A DNA stretch of 64,000 nt from Flavobacteriaceae bacterium (lineage in GTDB: Bacteria; Bacteroidota; Bacteroidia; Flavobacteriales; Flavobacteriaceae). This document shows positions 7,460 through 47,827 of this stretch, one piece after another. The translations under genes were made by a program, and so were the position numbers. Below the pieces are notes generated by a model. The model ran no database searches, was not told the origin of the DNA, and saw only the letters and a list, made by a program, of their open reading frames with translations. The stretch is from the NCBI GenBank assembly GCA_002746415.1, contig NVXD01000001.1, positions 248,001 through 312,000 of the forward strand, given 5' to 3'. Each line of letters begins with the position of its first letter. The first letter of the stretch is position 1.

Positions 7460-8302
7460 CTACTTTATCACCGCCAAATTAATCACTTCTTGTGCAGTAA
7501 GGTTACGCCAATGTCCGCGCGGAAGGTCTTTTTTGGTAAGTCCGGCATAAACCACACGATCCAACTTTACAACATCATACTCCAAATGTTCAAAAATACG
7601 ACGCACTATATTGTTCCTGCTACTAAAAATCTCTAAACCAATCTCTCTTTTGGGTGCGTTAACCACATAACTAATTTCTGCAACCCTGACCAAACTATCT
7701 TCTACAGTTAATCCGTCTTTAATTTTTTTAAAATCTTCTGAACGTAAATCCCTATTCAATTCTACATGATAAATTTTACGTAATCCGTTTTTGGGTCTTG
7801 CAAGCCTAGTTATCATTTCACCATCATTGGTGAACAATATTAATCCTGTTGTAGCTTTTTCTAATTTACCAATAGGATATAATGTTGATTTTGAAGCACC
7901 TACAACCAATTGTGCTGCAGTTCGCCTACCCCTACCATCTTTTGTAGTTGTTGCAAAATCCTTGGGTTTATTCAATAAGATATATTCCTTTTTTTCTGGG
8001 TTCAGAAGACGTCCATCAAATTTAACAACATCCTTCAGCTTTACCTTATACCCCATTTCTGTAATAGGTTTCCCATTTACAGTTACATTTCCAGAAGAAA
8101 TATAGATATCAGCATCCCTTCTAGAACATACCCCAGAATTGGCCACATATTTATTCAACCTAATTAAATCAGGATCTGAAGCCTGTTTAGGAGCAGTACT
8201 TCTTTTTGACGAAGGTTTCCCTTCATTGTATTTCCGCTTTCTATAATTTCCTTCCTCCTTGCTTGAAGATTTTCTATCCTTATTATAGTCTGACCTGCCC
8301 AT
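7460..8302 (-). CDS. RsuA/RluB-family rRNA pseudouridine synthase with altered catalytic motif
   Basis: Would convert a specific rRNA uridine to pseudouridine. The first 65 residues are a basic, low-complexity Lys/Ser/Arg tail; an S4 RNA-binding domain follows (LIRLNKYVANSGVCSRRDADIYI, about residues 47-105) and then the catalytic domain to residue 280. The family motif GRLDxxTxGLLLxTNDG appears as GKLEKATTGLILFTNDG, so the catalytic Asp is Glu148 and the preceding Arg is Lys. All other conserved surroundings (KIYHVEL, GRWREIG-like tail PRGHWRNLTAQE) are intact. It may be inactive, slow, or use Glu; see findings. Stop lies next to the convergent pseudogene. Confidence 0.85.
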   Translation of the reverse strand: MGRSDYNKDRKSSSKEEGNYRKRKYNEGKPSSKRSTAPKQASDPDLIRLNKYVANSGVCSRRDADIYISSGNVTVNGKPITEMGYKVKLKDVVKFDGRLLNPEKKEYILLNKPKDFATTTKDGRGRRTAAQLVVGASKSTLYPIGKLEKATTGLILFTNDGEMITRLARPKNGLRKIYHVELNRDLRSEDFKKIKDGLTVEDSLVRVAEISYVVNAPKREIGLEIFSSRNNIVRRIFEHLEYDVVKLDRVVYAGLTKKDLPRGHWRNLTAQEVINLAVIK

Positions 8303-8344
8303 GTTTTAAATTTTCGGCAAAGGTAGTCAAAGGTTTTTGGATTT

Positions 8345-9250
8345 TTACAAAATTCGATGGAGAACTAAATCAATGTCTATCAACAAAATACTAAAGACCC
8401 CAACAATGATTATCAGCTTTAAAATATTGTGCAACCATACATAATGTTTTTTGGCCTTAGATTTCCACATCAATACCAAAAACAATAGCAGTAAAAGAAT
8501 ACTGCCCTTAAAATAAAGGTGCATATATCCTACATCAAAATTATTAATCAATAAGAAGGCGGGGATTAATGTTAATAACACTAAGATTCCTATCAGTACT
8601 TTTGAGGTCTTTACGCCAAAAAGAATCGGAATTGTTCTGTAATTCTGTGCCATATCACCCTTAATATTCTCCAAATCCTTGATCATTTCCCTGGCCAAAA
8701 TCAATAGAAAAAGAAAAATAGCATGTACAAAGATGACCGATTCAAAATTCTTATAATACACAAAAACAGCAAAGAAAGGTGCAATGGCTAATGTTGCGGA
8801 CACCATATTCCCAACAAATGGAAGCTTCTTTAGTTTATGTGAATAGTACCAAATTCCAAAAACATAAGCTGAAAAGAACAGTACTGCTCTAAAAGATATA
8901 TAGCTTGCTAAAAAGGCAGCAAGAAAGTTGAGGATAAAATAAGTGGTTAATTTAAATCGCTGACTTACTAATTTATCCAGCATACTCTTCCGCGGCTTAT
9001 TGATTAAATCCTTCTCCGCATCATAAAAATTATTGATGATATAACCCGCTGCAATGACCATTGCAGAAGCAGTAACAATAAGAAATAGGTTGGGATCAAA
9101 AATTACTTTTCCAAAGGGAAGATGAGGTGCAAGAATATAAATAGATGCCAAATACTGGGCAAGTGTTACCATTAGCACATTATAGCCTCTGACAACGGAA
9201 AACAAACTCACTAACTTATACAGAAGGAGCTTATTTTTTCTACTAAACAT
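8345..9250 (-). CDS. UbiA-family prenyltransferase
   Basis: Polytopic inner-membrane prenyltransferase of about 301 residues. Both Asp-rich Mg-diphosphate motifs are visible: NNFYDAEKD (first, before IINKPRK-like basic residues) and DLENIKGDMAQNYRTIPI (second). Around eight hydrophobic segments surround them. I start at MFSRKNKLLL (9250), 10 bases after the upstream stop; a longer reading from 9298 would overlap the kinase gene. Flavobacterial relatives beside mevalonate genes are often labelled geranylgeranylglycerol-phosphate geranylgeranyltransferase, but the true acceptor is not visible. Cotranscribed with two mevalonate-pathway genes that supply prenyl diphosphate precursors. Confidence 0.85.
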   Translation of the reverse strand: MFSRKNKLLLYKLVSLFSVVRGYNVLMVTLAQYLASIYILAPHLPFGKVIFDPNLFLIVTASAMVIAAGYIINNFYDAEKDLINKPRKSMLDKLVSQRFKLTTYFILNFLAAFLASYISFRAVLFFSAYVFGIWYYSHKLKKLPFVGNMVSATLAIAPFFAVFVYYKNFESVIFVHAIFLFLLILAREMIKDLENIKGDMAQNYRTIPILFGVKTSKVLIGILVLLTLIPAFLLINNFDVGYMHLYFKGSILLLLLFLVLMWKSKAKKHYVWLHNILKLIIIVGVFSILLIDIDLVLHRIL

Positions 9251-42944: not shown

Positions 42945-43130
42945 ATGAATAAATACAAACAACTCACTATTCAGCTTATTGAGGCTCGAGAACAATTTGA
43001 TAATGGCGATATTACTCTTGAAGATTTTGAGAAGATTTTGAAGGGTCTTTATGAAGATTACTTGAAATTAGAAAAAAAGCAAAATGAAAAGGAAAGGAAA
43101 GAAATGGTAAACCTTCTATTTGCTACTTAA
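42945..43130 (+). CDS. Small charged protein (61 aa), element cargo
   Basis: Predicted helical and highly charged (LIEAREQFDNGDITLEDFEKIL, KKQNEKERKE), with no signal peptide. It starts 2 bases after the membrane-protein stop, so the two are very likely cotranscribed. Its last four bases overlap the end of the convergent repressor gene. Function unknown. Confidence 0.55.
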   Translation: MNKYKQLTIQLIEAREQFDNGDITLEDFEKILKGLYEDYLKLEKKQNEKERKEMVNLLFAT

Positions 43131-43621
43131 GATTTTTTTGATTTCAATTGATTCAGATCCCCAACATTCTCACCCAATCTACTCTCAAATCCTTCTTTGT
43201 GCAACATATTGTAAATTTCATCTACCTTTTCAATGGTACTTGCAAGCGTAGTATTCATAACCTTGGGAAAGTCTTCTTCTAAGGTTAATATTTGCTTTTG
43301 AAGCATTGCAATTATTTGATCCTTATTTACACCGGGATCTACCTTGCTATTTTTATTCGATAATTCTGGATGATTCTCTTCCACAAAACGATCATACTGT
43401 TGTGAAGGAAAACCAATTTCACCGGTAACAAAGTCAGTTAAATTAATTTCAAAGTACTTACACATCAATAAAATCTTGTCAATTGGTGGCTTTACTGTGC
43501 CATTTACCCAACCACTAACACTACCTGGACTCGTGTTCGCTATCACTTTTCCAAAATCTGATTGTTTTACGTTTCGGATTGAAAGTAGTTTTTTTAAATT
43601 ACTGGGTAAATTGTAAGGCAT
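43127..43621 (-). CDS. XRE-family repressor of the element
   Basis: 164 residues. The first 70 are a Cro/CI-type helix-turn-helix (NLKKLLSIRNVKQSDFGKVI, then SPGSVSGWVNGTVKPPIDKILLMCKYFEI), followed by an alpha-helical region (about 95-150, ILTLEEDFPKVMNTTLASTIEKVDEIYNML split over two helices) that may dimerise. It faces the 43720 gene across a 98-base gap containing three inverted repeats and a good promoter, the classical arrangement of an immunity repressor. Confidence 0.82.
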   Translation of the reverse strand: MPYNLPSNLKKLLSIRNVKQSDFGKVIANTSPGSVSGWVNGTVKPPIDKILLMCKYFEINLTDFVTGEIGFPSQQYDRFVEENHPELSNKNSKVDPGVNKDQIIAMLQKQILTLEEDFPKVMNTTLASTIEKVDEIYNMLHKEGFESRLGENVGDLNQLKSKKS

Positions 43622-43622
43622 T

Positions 43623-43695
43623 TAATTATTTTAAATAATTATTCAATTAAACCTTTGTGTATTTAATTATATTAAATTAAATTTGTTGGAAACAA
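43623..43695 (+). promoter_or_regulatory. Rightward element promoter with three inverted-repeat operators
   Basis: The promoter is TTTG (43654-43657), 20 bases, then TAAATTTG (43678-43685), a full Bacteroidota consensus. IR1 AATTATT-TTA-AATAATT spans 43624-43640; IR2 ATTTAAT-TAT-ATTAAAT spans 43661-43677 and fills the spacer between -33 and -7; IR3 TTGTT-GGA-AACAA spans 43683-43695 and overlaps the -7 element. All three have a 3-base centre. These are the likely sites of the adjacent XRE protein. Confidence 0.72.
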
Positions 43696-43719: not shown

Positions 43720-44037
43720 ATGATTTCATTACACAAAAAATATCTAATTGCCCGTAACAAAAAGGCATTTTTTTTCATCATAGATAAGATAAGTAAAGGG
43801 GTTCCCGTAGTTGATGCCCTACAACAGGCCGCAGAGTCAAATGATTTTACCGTTTCCTATGGTTGTGCAAAACAACTTATTTACAACAAAGAATATTTTT
43901 GGTCTCCTTATTTTGAATATGACAAGAAAGGCAATGTCGTTTTTTTGTTGGATATCAGTGGTGCAAAAATTGTTGGCTCAGAAACTAAATTTTATAAGGA
44001 CTATATGAAAGAGAAGGAATTGAAAGAAGTAGCATAA
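43720..44037 (+). CDS. Unknown protein (105 aa), first gene of the rightward element operon
   Basis: Not recognised. No membrane segment; basic N-terminus (MISLHKKYLIARNKKAFFFIID), a helical middle (VVDALQQAAESNDFTVSYGCAKQLIY, resembling a small DNA-binding or helix-turn-helix-like stretch but not convincingly) and a charged tail (KDYMKEKELKEVA). Its place opposite the XRE repressor is where satellite and phage elements usually keep a Cro, antirepressor or other early regulator, so a regulatory role is a reasonable guess. Confidence 0.55.
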   Translation: MISLHKKYLIARNKKAFFFIIDKISKGVPVVDALQQAAESNDFTVSYGCAKQLIYNKEYFWSPYFEYDKKGNVVFLLDISGAKIVGSETKFYKDYMKEKELKEVA

Positions 44038-44064
44038 GGCCAACAAAAAAATACCATTAAAAAA

Positions 44065-44084
44065 GGCAGGGTACCAACCCTGCC
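44065..44084 (+). promoter_or_regulatory. Perfect hairpin directly before leader copy 1
   Basis: GGCAGGGT-ACCA-ACCCTGCC, an 8-bp perfect GC-rich stem with a 4-base loop, ending 3 bases before leader copy 1. No T-run follows, so it is not a standard terminator. Confidence 0.6.
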
Positions 44085-44087
44085 TCA

Positions 44088-44102
44088 CCAAATAAAATAC
44101 CA
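44088..44102 (+). repeat. Leader repeat copy 1 (CCAAATAAAATACCA)
   Basis: Identical 15 bases recur at 44819, 45290 and 46004. Here the nearest ATG is at 44117 (a 36-codon ORF), and the recognised gene starts at 44212. Confidence 0.75.
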
Positions 44103-44116
44103 CAAAAAATACTCGA

Positions 44117-44227
44117 ATGAGTACTATCGTGGAGATTTTAATTTTCAAAAGAGTACCACCTCTTTTGAATTGCAAAGATAACAAAAAAACGAGTGGCGCA
44201 ACAATAGTACAATGGACCAAGGAGTAA
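44117..44227 (+). CDS. Possible 36-aa leader peptide
   Basis: ATG at 44117 opens 36 codons (MSTIVEILIFKRVPPLLN...) ending in TAA at 44225-44227, overlapping the start of the next gene at 44212. It is placed like the coding starts behind the other leader copies, but nothing else supports it; it may be a leader peptide or chance. Confidence 0.3.
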   Translation: MSTIVEILIFKRVPPLLNCKDNKKTSGATIVQWTKE

Positions 44228-44445
44228 CAACATTTTTAACTGATAGCATTAAGGCTTTGACCAAGAAGCAACAAATGCAAATTGTTGAGAGTGTTTTAAA
44301 GGACTTGGACAGCAACAGTATAAAGGCAAAAGAAATCAACCAGACCATAGCACTAATGCCGCAATATGATATCAGTGCAATGGCCGCTGAAATTAGAAGA
44401 ACCCACAACTATAAAAATAGAAAACCCAAAGCAGTAACCCATTAA
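44212..44445 (+). CDS. Unknown small protein (77 aa)
   Basis: Not recognised. Soluble, mostly helical by composition (DSIKALTKKQQMQIVESVLKDLD), with a basic tail (RRTHNYKNRKPKAV) that could contact nucleic acid. Followed after 17 bases by the next small gene, so likely cotranscribed within the rightward cluster. Confidence 0.5.
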   Translation: MDQGVTTFLTDSIKALTKKQQMQIVESVLKDLDSNSIKAKEINQTIALMPQYDISAMAAEIRRTHNYKNRKPKAVTH

Positions 44446-44462
44446 TAATTAAATACATATTT

Positions 44463-44720
44463 ATGAAATCAAGTGACATTTTAGCAGAGCTCAAAGCGAG
44501 AAAGCAGAAAGCAACAGAAGGAGTTGGAAAAGGAAAAAAAATTCCACAAATAGCCATTACTGAAAACGACATCGAAAAGGCCTTATCCTCTTTGAATGGT
44601 GTGACAGAGGATTATCTTAACCAACCTGGTTTCCTTACCACGGTTTATTTGAACGGAGCCAAAAGAACTGGTAAGGATATTACAAATATTAGAGAAGGTC
44701 TATTTGTGGCCTTTGTTTAA
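44463..44720 (+). CDS. Unknown small protein (85 aa)
   Basis: Not recognised. Lys-rich N-terminus (LKARKQKATEGVGKGKKIP) followed by a more ordered part (ITENDIEKALSSLNGVTEDYL, AKRTGKDITNIREGLFVAFV). No signal peptide or membrane segment. A small palindrome (44730-44740, GGCAA-T-TTGCC) and a CGGGAG/CTCCCG pair (44754-44782) lie in the 112-base gap before the next gene. Confidence 0.5.
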   Translation: MKSSDILAELKARKQKATEGVGKGKKIPQIAITENDIEKALSSLNGVTEDYLNQPGFLTTVYLNGAKRTGKDITNIREGLFVAFV

Positions 44721-44818
44721 AATCCAAGGGGCAATTTGCCTTTAGCCTAAGTTCGGGAGTTTACCAAAGGGGGTTTCTCCCGTCCTTACGGCTTTCAAAA
44801 GTACCGCAATACCATTCA

Positions 44819-44833
44819 CCAAATAAAATACCA
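44819..44833 (+). repeat. Leader repeat copy 2, fused to a start codon
   Basis: CCAAATAAAATACCA, whose last A is the A of the ATG of the following gene at 44833. Confidence 0.8.
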
Positions 44834-45075
44834 TGTACACACCACAAGATAAAAGAAAGGTCAAAGCGGCCATTAAAACCATTAAGGAAATATATAACGA
44901 TAATGACATTCATTTTATCATCATTTCCAAAGAGGTATTAAAAGGAGATAAGGACCAAGTGAATTTTGATATAGGAGGTAATCCAATACAAATAGCACAC
45001 GCAATTTACTCCGCCGCAACAGATGATCACATGATCAATCATATTATTAAGAAAGCAACCCAAATATTAAAATAA
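44833..45075 (+). CDS. Unknown small protein (80 aa)
   Basis: Not recognised. Begins MYTPQDKRKVKAAIKTIKEIY, then DIHFIIISKEVLKGDKDQVNFDIGG and HAIYSAATDDHMINHIIKKATQIL: an alternating helix/strand pattern of a compact alpha/beta protein. Start fixed by leader copy 2 and coupled by a TAATG overlap to the next ORF at 45075. Confidence 0.5.
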   Translation: MYTPQDKRKVKAAIKTIKEIYNDNDIHFIIISKEVLKGDKDQVNFDIGGNPIQIAHAIYSAATDDHMINHIIKKATQILK

Positions 45076-45236
45076 TGGCATCAAACGAAAAAGGCGAAAC
45101 CGTTGCCCATATCGCTCAAATACAGGATATGAAAGATAAATACCCAGAAATTGCAAGGCCCTTGACCAACATTGAAAACCATTTCAAGGGGCTGACACGA
45201 ATTAAATCTGTCAGACAACCAAATACCATTACATAA
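45075..45236 (+). CDS. Unknown small protein (53 aa)
   Basis: ATG at 45075 overlaps the previous stop (TAATG). Reads MASNEKGETVAHIAQIQDMK and continues through KYPEIARPLTNIENHFKGL to RQPNTIT, then TAA. Hydrophilic, helical, no membrane segment. The translational coupling is the main reason to accept it as a gene. Function unknown. Confidence 0.5.
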   Translation: MASNEKGETVAHIAQIQDMKDKYPEIARPLTNIENHFKGLTRIKSVRQPNTIT

Positions 45237-45243
45237 TAAAACC

Positions 45244-45288
45244 TTAAAGCAATAATGCTTTAAACCACCAAAACCATGCCTTGCATGG
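45244..45288 (+). promoter_or_regulatory. Two tandem hairpins before leader copy 3
   Basis: TTAAAGCA-ATAA-TGCTTTAA (45244-45263, 8-bp stem) and CCATGC-CTT-GCATGG (45274-45288, 6-bp stem). The second ends 1 base before leader copy 3, as the hairpin before copy 1 does. Confidence 0.6.
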
Positions 45289-45289
45289 A

Positions 45290-45304
45290 CCAAATAAAAT
45301 ACCA
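45290..45304 (+). repeat. Leader repeat copy 3
   Basis: CCAAATAAAATACCA, 2 bases before the ATG at 45307. Confidence 0.8.
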
Positions 45305-45306
45305 CA

Positions 45307-45627
45307 ATGAAACATACATCACAACAGGTTACATCATTTCATTTAATGCAACCCCTTAGAAAAAACAAGAACTTATTGGAAGTTCCTAATTTAAGCCATA
45401 CACCGGTACAATTTCACGGACTGTATTCCACCATTCGCCAAAACCAACACATCAAAAAATTTGAACAGCATTTGTCAGGAACAAGAATATACCTGCAATT
45501 GTTTTTAGCAGATGGGCTTATTTGCCACACAGCATTGAATAGAAGACTTGCTAATATGTTCTACAGCCATAGTGCGGTAATAACATTTCACGAGAACTTT
45601 CTAATTGTTGAACTCCAAATTAAGTAA
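45307..45627 (+). CDS. Unknown protein (106 aa)
   Basis: Not recognised. No signal peptide. Composition suggests a small alpha/beta protein (VQFHGLYSTIRQNQHIKKFEQHLSGTR, IYLQLFLADGLICHTALNRRLANMFY split, ending FHENFLIVELQIK). Start set by leader copy 3; the next gene begins 1 base after the stop (TAATATG), so the two are coupled. Confidence 0.5.
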   Translation: MKHTSQQVTSFHLMQPLRKNKNLLEVPNLSHTPVQFHGLYSTIRQNQHIKKFEQHLSGTRIYLQLFLADGLICHTALNRRLANMFYSHSAVITFHENFLIVELQIK

Positions 45628-45628
45628 T

Positions 45629-45967
45629 ATGATTATTTCACCGGTGGACATATTGACAATCAGTATTTATTTGGTTGCCAATATATGGGTTCGCCTCTGG
45701 TTGATAATACGCAAAACAAAAATAAAGACATTCCATTTTCATTGTTTAAATACCATCCATGAAGCCCTGCCATTAATGCCGGACTTTTTCAAAATGTGCA
45801 ATGATGAATGCTTTACAAAACAATACTTTAAATATGACAAAATCAAACCAAACCACGATGATATGCTTTACAGTTTTAAAAAATTGACCATTGAAAATTG
45901 GTTTACCGAAAATCAAATAAAAACTCTTTTTGGGCTGCCCCACCAGTCCTTAAATAAACAATTATGA
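45629..45967 (+). CDS. Unknown protein with one N-terminal hydrophobic helix (112 aa)
   Basis: Not recognised. I start at the ATG at 45629 rather than an overlapping TTG at 45605. One hydrophobic segment (VDILTISIYLVANIWVRLWLII split near residues 6-26) is followed by a basic, His/Cys-containing hydrophilic domain (FHFHCLNTIHEALPLMPDFF, MCNDECFTKQYFKYDK). Likely a single-pass membrane protein with a cytoplasmic C-terminus. Confidence 0.5.
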   Translation: MIISPVDILTISIYLVANIWVRLWLIIRKTKIKTFHFHCLNTIHEALPLMPDFFKMCNDECFTKQYFKYDKIKPNHDDMLYSFKKLTIENWFTENQIKTLFGLPHQSLNKQL

Positions 45968-46003
45968 GATAATCCGAACAAGACAAAATTACTAGCATTC
46001 CCA

Positions 46004-46018
46004 CCAAATAAAATACCA
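46004..46018 (+). repeat. Leader repeat copy 4
   Basis: CCAAATAAAATACCA, 4 bases before the ATG at 46023. No hairpin stands in front of this copy. Confidence 0.8.
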
Positions 46019-46022
46019 CAAA

Positions 46023-47084
46023 ATGAGCAATTCAGCGAAAAGAAGTAACAAGAGTGCATCTGTTTTACAGGTCATGCAGGAGGTACCAGGAGTAAAAAAA
46101 GAAGTGCAAGTAATTTCCGCAACAGAACTGCAACAGATGGGGAACTATCCCTACAAAGCAGTGTTTCCAATCTTGGAGAAAAACACCCTTTCTTACTGCT
46201 ACCAACGATATAGAGAGTATGAAACCCTGTATAACACCAAGGTATTTAACTTCAATTTAATTGTTGAGCGATTCAACAATAATGTTGATATGAATATTAC
46301 AAAGACCTCTAATTCCAAATCATGCCTCCAGCAAGCTAAGAACTTCATATCACAACACAATTCCAATCAAGTTTGGGAATACAATATTAAGGCACAAGAA
46401 TACAACATGCTTTTTCCATCCCCAATAATCAAATTACGAAAAGCACAACCATTAAAAAATAACCATAGGGATTTGTTTGATATGATTTTACGCAGGTATC
46501 AAATTAGTTTAATGGAAATGAAGCGGATGCAACAAAGAATGGGTAAAACTCACGCTACTACTATTCCAAGAGTAGATGTAAACACATCCCATTTAACCGA
46601 TTTAAACCACATTGGAGGCGCTAAAATGACACTTAAAACACGTGTTACCCTAAGGCGCACAAAAAAGCGACTAGAGGAAGCTGGTGTGCTTACAGACAAG
46701 GCTTTTAGAGGGAACAAAAGAGGGGTTTTATACTTCATTAACCCTCAAATTTTTGCCGTTTTTGATGATTTTGATGGAGAAATTTTGAGGTCTGACAATC
46801 AGCTTGTTATCCCCCCATCTGTATCAAAATGTTATGATTCTCTTACCCCTACTTGTTCAATAAATAAACCAATAATAAAGAGAGTTGTTGAAAAGACAAC
46901 TCTTATAAGGAAAAAAGCCGCCAACACAACTAAAAAACAGCCAGATAATGCAGATGGCTTTTTGTCGAGAAATTGTCTTACAGACAGTTCTACTTGTTCA
47001 CCAAGTGCAAAAAACGGTCAAAGCGAACCACTGGAAACGGATTTTTTTGAACCACTTAAAAAATCGTTTCAGATTATACTATAA
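46023..47084 (+). CDS. Unknown 353-aa protein with winged-helix-like region, possible replication or transcription factor
   Basis: Largest gene of the rightward cluster. Basic N-terminus (SAKRSNKSASV); the middle segment TLKTRVTLRRTKKRLEEAGVL followed by GNKRGVLYFINPQIFAVFDDF (about residues 200-255) has the look of a winged helix as found in plasmid/element replication initiators and regulators. The C-terminal 90 residues are low-complexity and Ser/Thr/Lys-rich. Position next to the integrase and size fit a replication initiator of a small element, but no Rep family signature is certain. Confidence 0.5.
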   Translation: MSNSAKRSNKSASVLQVMQEVPGVKKEVQVISATELQQMGNYPYKAVFPILEKNTLSYCYQRYREYETLYNTKVFNFNLIVERFNNNVDMNITKTSNSKSCLQQAKNFISQHNSNQVWEYNIKAQEYNMLFPSPIIKLRKAQPLKNNHRDLFDMILRRYQISLMEMKRMQQRMGKTHATTIPRVDVNTSHLTDLNHIGGAKMTLKTRVTLRRTKKRLEEAGVLTDKAFRGNKRGVLYFINPQIFAVFDDFDGEILRSDNQLVIPPSVSKCYDSLTPTCSINKPIIKRVVEKTTLIRKKAANTTKKQPDNADGFLSRNCLTDSSTCSPSAKNGQSEPLETDFFEPLKKSFQIIL

Positions 47085-47138
47085 AAGGGTTTGCAATAAA
47101 TATTGCTATGCTCACTTTAATCCGGCGGGGGTGGTATA

Positions 47139-47687
47139 CTATGTCCGTCCTTTCCACTTAAGTTCTGATATGCTTTTTTTGTCTAACTCATTTTCTTTAC
47201 ACCAATCCAAAAACATATTGAGGTAATTCCAATAACTATTGTACGTGCCTTCTTTTAAAGTATTTTTTTTGTTTTCTAATGCTGAAACAAACGCTTCTTT
47301 GATTGTATTGTATGTTTTTTCAATTTGTTCATTAGCAGTATCATCAAGGGGGTTCCATCCTCCAACTAGTAATTCCTTATAAGCAGCAACCATTGCATTA
47401 CCGTAAACAATCCTCTCATTAACGGTTTTAAAGCGATTAATATTTCTATAAAATTTTAAAGGTTGCTTGGAAAATAAGCCAGTATCAGGGTCCTTATACC
47501 TAAAATACACATACCACCGATAACCTTTTTTTGCAGTAGGAACACGCATACCCCTTGTATTTTCCTTTGGAATATACAGTTTAGGCTCTGAATAACGTCT
47601 TTCAGCGATAATCATTTTGTGTTTTATGACCTCATTTCCGTACTCGAATTCGTACTCACTTTGAATATTTATGCTAATTTTTTTCAT
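47139..47687 (-). pseudogene. Truncated tyrosine recombinase/integrase (N-terminal 182 aa only)
   Basis: Starts MKKISINIQSEYEFEYGNEV, with an arm-type DNA-binding region (KGYRWYVYFRYKDPDTGLF) and the beginning of a SAM-like core-binding domain (EGTYNSYWNYLNMFLDWCKENELDKKSI split near residues 142-170). It then stops after LKWKGRT, before the catalytic domain with its Arg-His-Arg-Tyr residues (integrases of this class are usually about 400 residues). The gene begins 60 bases from the att repeat, as expected for a site-specific integrase. The 3' part has been deleted near 47140, so the protein cannot catalyse excision. Confidence 0.8.
47640..47658. repeat. Right-end paired GTACTCGA repeats (candidate integrase arm sites)
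   Basis: GTACTCGA at 47640-47647 and GTACTCA at 47652-47658, with the same 12-bp spacing as the left-end pair. They lie inside the start of the integrase gene, where they encode EYEFEY-type residues, about 90 bp from the att repeat. Confidence 0.55.
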
Positions 47688-47746: not shown

Positions 47747-47797
47747 GTACTCGAGGCGGGAATCGAACCCGCACTCCGAAGAACTGGATTTTGAATC
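47747..47797 (-). repeat. att repeat, copy within the intact tRNA-Leu
   Basis: Partner of the 40698-40748 repeat. This copy keeps the complete tRNA, as expected when a tyrosine recombinase integrates at a tRNA 3' end and restores the gene. Confidence 0.95.
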
Positions 47798-47827
47798 CAG
47801 CGCGTCTACCAGTTCCGCCACTCGAGC
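47748..47827 (-). tRNA. tRNA-Leu (anticodon CAA)
   Basis: 80 bases, transcribed leftward: acceptor stem GCTCGAG pairing with CTCGAGT (last pair G-T), discriminator A, D arm GCGGAACTGGTAGACGC, anticodon stem CTGGA/TCCAG with loop TTCAAAA (anticodon CAA, codon UUG), a short class-II variable arm, and T arm GCGGGTTCGATTCCCGC. CCA is not encoded. It is the integration site of the 7.1 kb element. Confidence 0.95.

Follow-up and report, generated by a model that had tools for sequence, protein, structure and literature searches.

Antisense RNAs encoded by mobile elements mostly control, to our knowledge, a single gene. CopA/RNAI-type plasmid antisense RNAs control replication initiators and act on the mRNA that is encoded opposite to them. 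The c4 RNA of P1/P7 is a short trans-acting prophage antisense RNA, which pairs around the ribosome-binding site and has been linked to heteroimmunity (PMC12197685). In Bacteroidota, FopS/GibS of Bacteroides thetaiotaomicron (Rfam RF04319) pair near the start codons of several mRNAs and so repress them, and the start-region duplex formed by FopS at susC has been reported to block initiation (PMC11697453). In addition, RteR of CTnDOT, as it is cited in PMC9299015, is an sRNA that a Bacteroidota mobile element encodes and that represses genes of this same element.

The locus considered here lies in an element within a 64-kb stretch of flavobacterial DNA (the window, that is, the whole stretch that was analysed), and four copies of one short motif in it very probably form the two sides of an antisense system, namely one sRNA seed and three start-codon targets. 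Among antisense RNAs that act at the ribosome-binding site and are tied to heteroimmunity, c4 would be the closest precedent: the likeness would lie in the trans pairing of an element sRNA with the ribosome-binding region, for which complementarity is seen here. However, c4 controls one mRNA (ant), whereas the seed of the element RNA is matched by 2–8 genes per element, and the element RNA is of another family, which is flavobacterial and has three hairpins and GUGGU loops. FopS/GibS and the element RNA are alike in being Bacteroidota sRNAs with a seed plus a terminator, but FopS has a single-stranded 5′ seed, a terminator and host SusC targets, while the element RNA has extra hairpins and candidate targets in its own element. 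RteR is set apart by its description, in which it acts on the transfer operon and, in the account cited, no shared seed at many start codons is described. With CopA/RNAI the element RNA would share the antisense control of a replication initiator gene, but some of its targets are as far as about 10 kb away, and not all of them are replication genes.

Copies of the Repeated Motif

Four exact 15-nt copies had been reported in the preliminary description, and all of them were recovered: the 15-mer CCAAATAAAATACCA lies on the + strand at 44088, 44819, 45290 and 46004. The 16-nt core common to the four copies is ACCAAATAAAATACCA (span 44087–46018), and the copies at 44088 and 46004 are alike over 22 nt (CACCAAATAAAATACCACAAAA). 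No further exact copy of the 15-mer was found in the 64-kb window or in the 3.82-Mb genome, and only three one-mismatch sites occur genome-wide. That is to say, the motif is unique to the element, and the possibility that it is an ordinary leader, common before flavobacterial genes, was ruled out by this confinement.

Three of the copies occupy the ribosome-binding position, as had been proposed. The spacing given earlier (0, 2 and 4 bases) stands for the gaps of 2 nt at ATG 45307 and 4 nt at ATG 46023, but at ORF 44833 the motif overlaps the start codon, its last A doubling as the A of the ATG. The copy at 44088 (core 44087–44102) is another matter: the next sizeable gene begins at ATG 44212, more than 100 nt off, so the copy is not its leader, and the frame that starts at the first ATG past it (44117) is short, about 36 codons. 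The views that selection rather than chance lies behind the conservation and that the motif coordinates a gene set are judged right. The assumption that all four copies are sites of the same kind has to be given up, as the 44088 copy falls instead in a putative sRNA gene on the opposite strand, with a promoter, a terminator and homologues.

Putative Small RNA Gene and Its Candidate Targets

When read on the minus strand, the 44087–44102 copy looks like the part of a putative ~110-nt small RNA gene that does the pairing. The gene as computed, from the −7 element to the terminator, covers 44056..44186 (−) and is matched by covariance model R2; the predicted transcript inside it runs from about 44168 to 44058 (−). 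A sequence scan places its predicted Bacteroidota-type promoter, TTG-N18-TATCTTTG, at 44173..44201 (−), and the full promoter consensus (spacing 18–20) occurs only three times on the minus strand of the window. Hairpin 1 (44144..44169, −), obtained by folding, has the loop GUGGUA and is conserved in the loci L140, L175 and L186. The seed UUUUGUGGUAUUUUAUUUGGUG (44086..44107, −) is antisense to the three leaders, and it is partly paired in the predicted fold. The intrinsic terminator GGCAGGGTTGGTACCCTGCC-TTTTTT, with the loop UUGGUA, follows at 44058..44086 (−), and its T-tract is present on the minus strand only. Thus the window RNA has both the −7 element TANNTTTG upstream and an intrinsic terminator with the (G/U)UGGU loop. 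An 80-codon frame with a TTG start (43978–44220, −) overlaps the small RNA; it is probably a chance frame, since its start precedes the predicted transcript start.

The three sites complementary to the seed lie on the + strand. Site 1 (44816..44835, 18-nt match) covers the start codon of ORF 44833 (44833..45075), which encodes 80 aa of no known family; site 2 (45289..45307, 19-nt match) precedes ORF 45307 (45307..45627), 106 aa and likewise of no known family; and site 3 (46002..46023, 22-nt match) precedes ORF 46023 (46023..47084), which encodes a 353-aa winged-helix protein. The seed duplexes with these targets reach −27 to −31 kcal/mol, while the next best among the 98 ATG starts in the window reaches −16. 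The 46023 protein is shorter than its relatives of about 580 aa and shares 20–28% identity with these distant relatives. Its fold weakly matches the RepA N-terminal domains 4pql/4pt7 (Z 6.9/6.5), Fur-type winged helices score equally well, and it may tentatively be called replication-initiator-like.

State of the Window Element

A Cro/C1-type repressor gene (43127..43621, −) lies on the same strand as the small RNA. Divergently from it, the predicted promoter of the element operon, TTG-N20-TAAATTTG, is located at 43655..43685 (+) and is followed by the first operon gene (43720..44037, +; 105 aa). Transcription of the operon would continue across the sequence complementary to the small RNA. At the other end, an integrase fragment (47139..47687, −) adjoins a tRNA-Leu (47747–47827). 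The integrase gene is cut short by a repeat of about 150 bp (47006–47156), which is IS-end or MITE-like and recurs twice on contig C36 (94%, 92%). This repeat also takes the place of the initiator gene's end, so that the final ~26 residues of the initiator-like protein are encoded by it. Because the integrase keeps its SAM-like N-terminal part only and the repeat replaces the initiator gene end, the window element is a decayed remnant, and for this reason the window RNA may be inactive now.

Related Elements with Their Own Seeds

No close relatives of the 46023 protein or of its L140/L139 relatives were found in collections of genome contigs, viral contigs, phages and plasmids, so relatives were taken from whole-genome searches, in which profile A1 of the initiator-like protein gave matches in 28 of 397 family genomes and in 30 of 299 genomes of one genus. 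A detector was defined by a terminator with at least 11 nt upstream of it antisense to at least two distant start-codon regions. It picks up the window RNA and a similar arrangement with another seed (CCATTTAACCACA) in L140, a locus brought in only through a relative 28% identical to the 46023 protein. The detector control, with 12-nt words, ran over all 120 stretches of random viral contigs holding the 15-mer (one copy in each of the 80 listed) and gave one incoherent call in 1.09 Mb of AT-rich sequence.

The arrangement is present in 12 elements including the window, with about seven seed classes, and it recurs with other seeds in elements that were located only via the 46023 protein. The seed is ACCATTTAACCACA in L140, L241 and L244, ACTATTTAAAATTACCACAC in L175, ACCAAATAAATACCAAA in L186 and ACCATTTAAAACCCACC in L247, and seeds of the types CACCATTAAACCAACC occur in L251, L257, L264 and L266. 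Most of the RNAs have the same order, that is, a −7 element, a GUGGU-loop hairpin, a short hairpin, the seed and a terminator usually with the (G/U)UGGU loop; the L262 RNA is without a clear first hairpin. In all 12 elements the reversed copy is followed by a T-tract terminator. Several Rep-bearing loci that were tested had no such RNA/leader system, and the RNA homologues in L139 and L246 had no clear long targets.

Some variants were observed beside these. The RNAs at L139 9011–9103, L240 11338–11428 and L242 11016–11104 form a sub-family in which the middle hairpin is longer and the terminator loop is again GUGGUA; their targets are short (9–10 nt) or not clear. In the L186 RNA (8230–8376) one terminator-like hairpin follows another, and beyond the second there is another copy of the seed. 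The Rep-bearing locus L178 holds at 7610–8700 a tandem array of about 15 copies of a 76-bp unit. In Rep-bearing loci of other genera (L181 6660–13480, L182 1611–12480 and L183 6065–12420), TAACGC-containing repeated leaders stand before 3–5 genes and a terminator is present in all three; L181 and L183 have an antisense TTG-N20-TACTTTTG promoter inside the first ORF. This second group is a possible parallel antisense system, and it was left out of the counts on account of the antisense start inside the first ORF and the lack of an R2 match.

Homology and Covariation of the RNA

Model R2, for which six elements from a single genus supplied the sequences and the window RNA was left out, matches the window RNA at 47.3 bits (E = 8e-9 in 1.06 Mb). 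By this blind match, and by a seed complementary to three start-codon leaders over 18–22 nt, the window RNA fits the R2 family. Matches at E 0.01 or less occur in 15 of the 299 genomes of that genus and are strongest in Rep-bearing elements. In a covariation set of 16 sequences, one of them a second, weak L246 match, 92% of cells are paired, two-sided changes number 93 against 27.6 in shuffles (0/500), and the covariation score is 0.69 against 0.05–0.15 for slid partners; all of these figures are inflated by the R2-based alignment, which was fitted to the structure. Weak R1 matches in 16 genomes were without the seed/target system, and promoter-plus-loop pattern matches in genome and viral contig collections were set aside as chance.

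Rfam 15 gave no family over the small RNA at the gathering score, and elsewhere in the loci searched only tRNA and Flavo-1. FopS (RF04319) was absent among the window matches up to E = 5, and L140 reached 19.4 bits against the 56 needed. As far as Rfam and the literature searched show, this RNA family is undescribed.

Co-change of Seeds and Targets

An earlier count found at least three targets for 7 of 83 terminators, against about 1.1% of random positions, with 4 of 83 in the sense control; this contrast is weak because any k-mers were counted, and a stricter count with own-seed, sense and shuffled comparisons was therefore used. In the 12 elements there are 59 own-seed target genes, compared with 3 in the sense control and a mean of 1.3 for dinucleotide-shuffled seeds. 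Complementary sites of at least 11 nt number 93, and 73 of these fall in start-codon leaders, which account for 6.5% of the sequence. When seeds are set against elements, the matrix is nearly block-diagonal, with own-element targets at about 4.9 compared with 0.35 per off-class cell.

The same gene families recur among the targets. The initiator gene is targeted in 8 of the 12 elements, with leaders that differ and each match the seed of their own element; a family of 89–112 aa is targeted in 8 elements and a 195-aa family in 3. A family of 65–70 aa, targeted in 6 of 12, is encoded on the strand opposite the operon, so these genes would be hit in trans. In newly examined flanks, the jelly-roll-like (195-aa) gene carries a 14-nt own-seed complement in L269 and L247 and a partial one of 10 nt in L192, while that of L264 is without a seed match.

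As for the nature of these elements, L257 with its flank L267 encodes a GH108 endolysin, an ArdC/primase-like protein and many small membrane-like proteins. The predicted structure of the 195-aa target (pLDDT 68, moderate) resembles the SPV1 capsid protein (Z 8.7, 149 residues, rmsd 3.9), which also ranked first in a second comparison, with PRD1 and SH1 proteins ranking below it. Because of this resemblance it is plausible, though not proven, that the elements are tailless proviruses.

Alternative Explanations

A translation-enhancing leader was one of the readings offered for the motif earlier, in which case the 44088 copy would merely lead the unannotated small ORF at ATG 44117 (about 36 codons). 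Three copies do stand at start codons, and specific upstream nucleotides, for example A at −3, favour flavobacterial initiation (PMC6847099). Such a leader should recur, yet the motif is absent elsewhere in the genome, the same genes carry different sequences there in related elements, and the 44088 copy lies inside a homologous RNA gene with covarying hairpins. Enhancement is accordingly improbable; repression is the likelier direction, and the best explanation of the three leaders is that the sRNA pairs with them.

It is still a little less probable that the copies are DNA operators for an element protein such as the 43127 repressor. Exact repeated sites near a repressor gene, for which either orientation is permitted, would suit an operator, but the sites are found where translation begins, not at promoters, and most of them lie within what looks like a single operon, between its genes; moreover, the T-tract terminator behind the reversed copy in 12/12 elements and the covariation of the RNA hairpins speak against it. 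Least credible of all is the proposal that recent spread left the copies behind as boundaries of modular gene cassettes or as recombination sites. Exact identity within otherwise unlike intergenic DNA first suggested it, but in relatives the orthologous genes still have a leader at that position, with another sequence, one matching the RNA of their own element. The leader stays with the same genes, and its sequence is what varies.

Proposed Mechanism and Meaning

For the antisense system that we favour, the anatomy of the gene, the complementarity, the RNA's homology between elements, its covarying helices and the joint change of seeds with targets were established by computation; we infer that the RNA is expressed, that its effect would be repression and that it would act at the ribosome. 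The RNA, about 110 nt long, would be transcribed from the minus strand at a place with the divergent repressor gene on one side and most of the element operon on the other, and its seed would pair with the identical complementary stretch that covers the three start codons, that of the replication-initiator-like gene among them. Since a start-region duplex has been reported to block initiation for FopS at susC, a duplex over the start codon should do so here: pairing would block the entry of the ribosome, which in Bacteroidota relies on an unstructured A-rich leader and not on Shine-Dalgarno. In this way one RNA would keep the gene set silent, and the likeliest outcome would be multi-target antisense translational repression of replication genes of the element and, among intact relatives, of jelly-roll-like capsid genes as well. 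The predicted operon promoter at 43655–43685 reads towards the complement of the RNA, so the operon transcript might titrate the RNA once the repressor is lifted. Because the seeds differ between elements, it is also conceivable that the RNA acts as element-specific immunity.

A wider proposal, which we hold only tentatively and consider rather doubtful, is that the RNA is the immunity determinant of tailless jelly-roll-capsid flavobacterial proviruses. In that case one diversifying seed would silence replication and capsid genes both in the resident element and in any incoming one of its seed class, the seed classes would be RNA-defined immunity groups, and the operon transcript would be the sponge by which the switch is released.

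The RNA would represent a new family absent from Rfam and a rare mobile-element regulator in Bacteroidota. One RNA together with a shared leader would control a gene set, and the pairing can be read from sequence alone, as the seed and its targets change together between elements. These elements may also offer a clean system for studying the co-evolution of a regulatory RNA with many targets, and whether the seeds define immunity groups.
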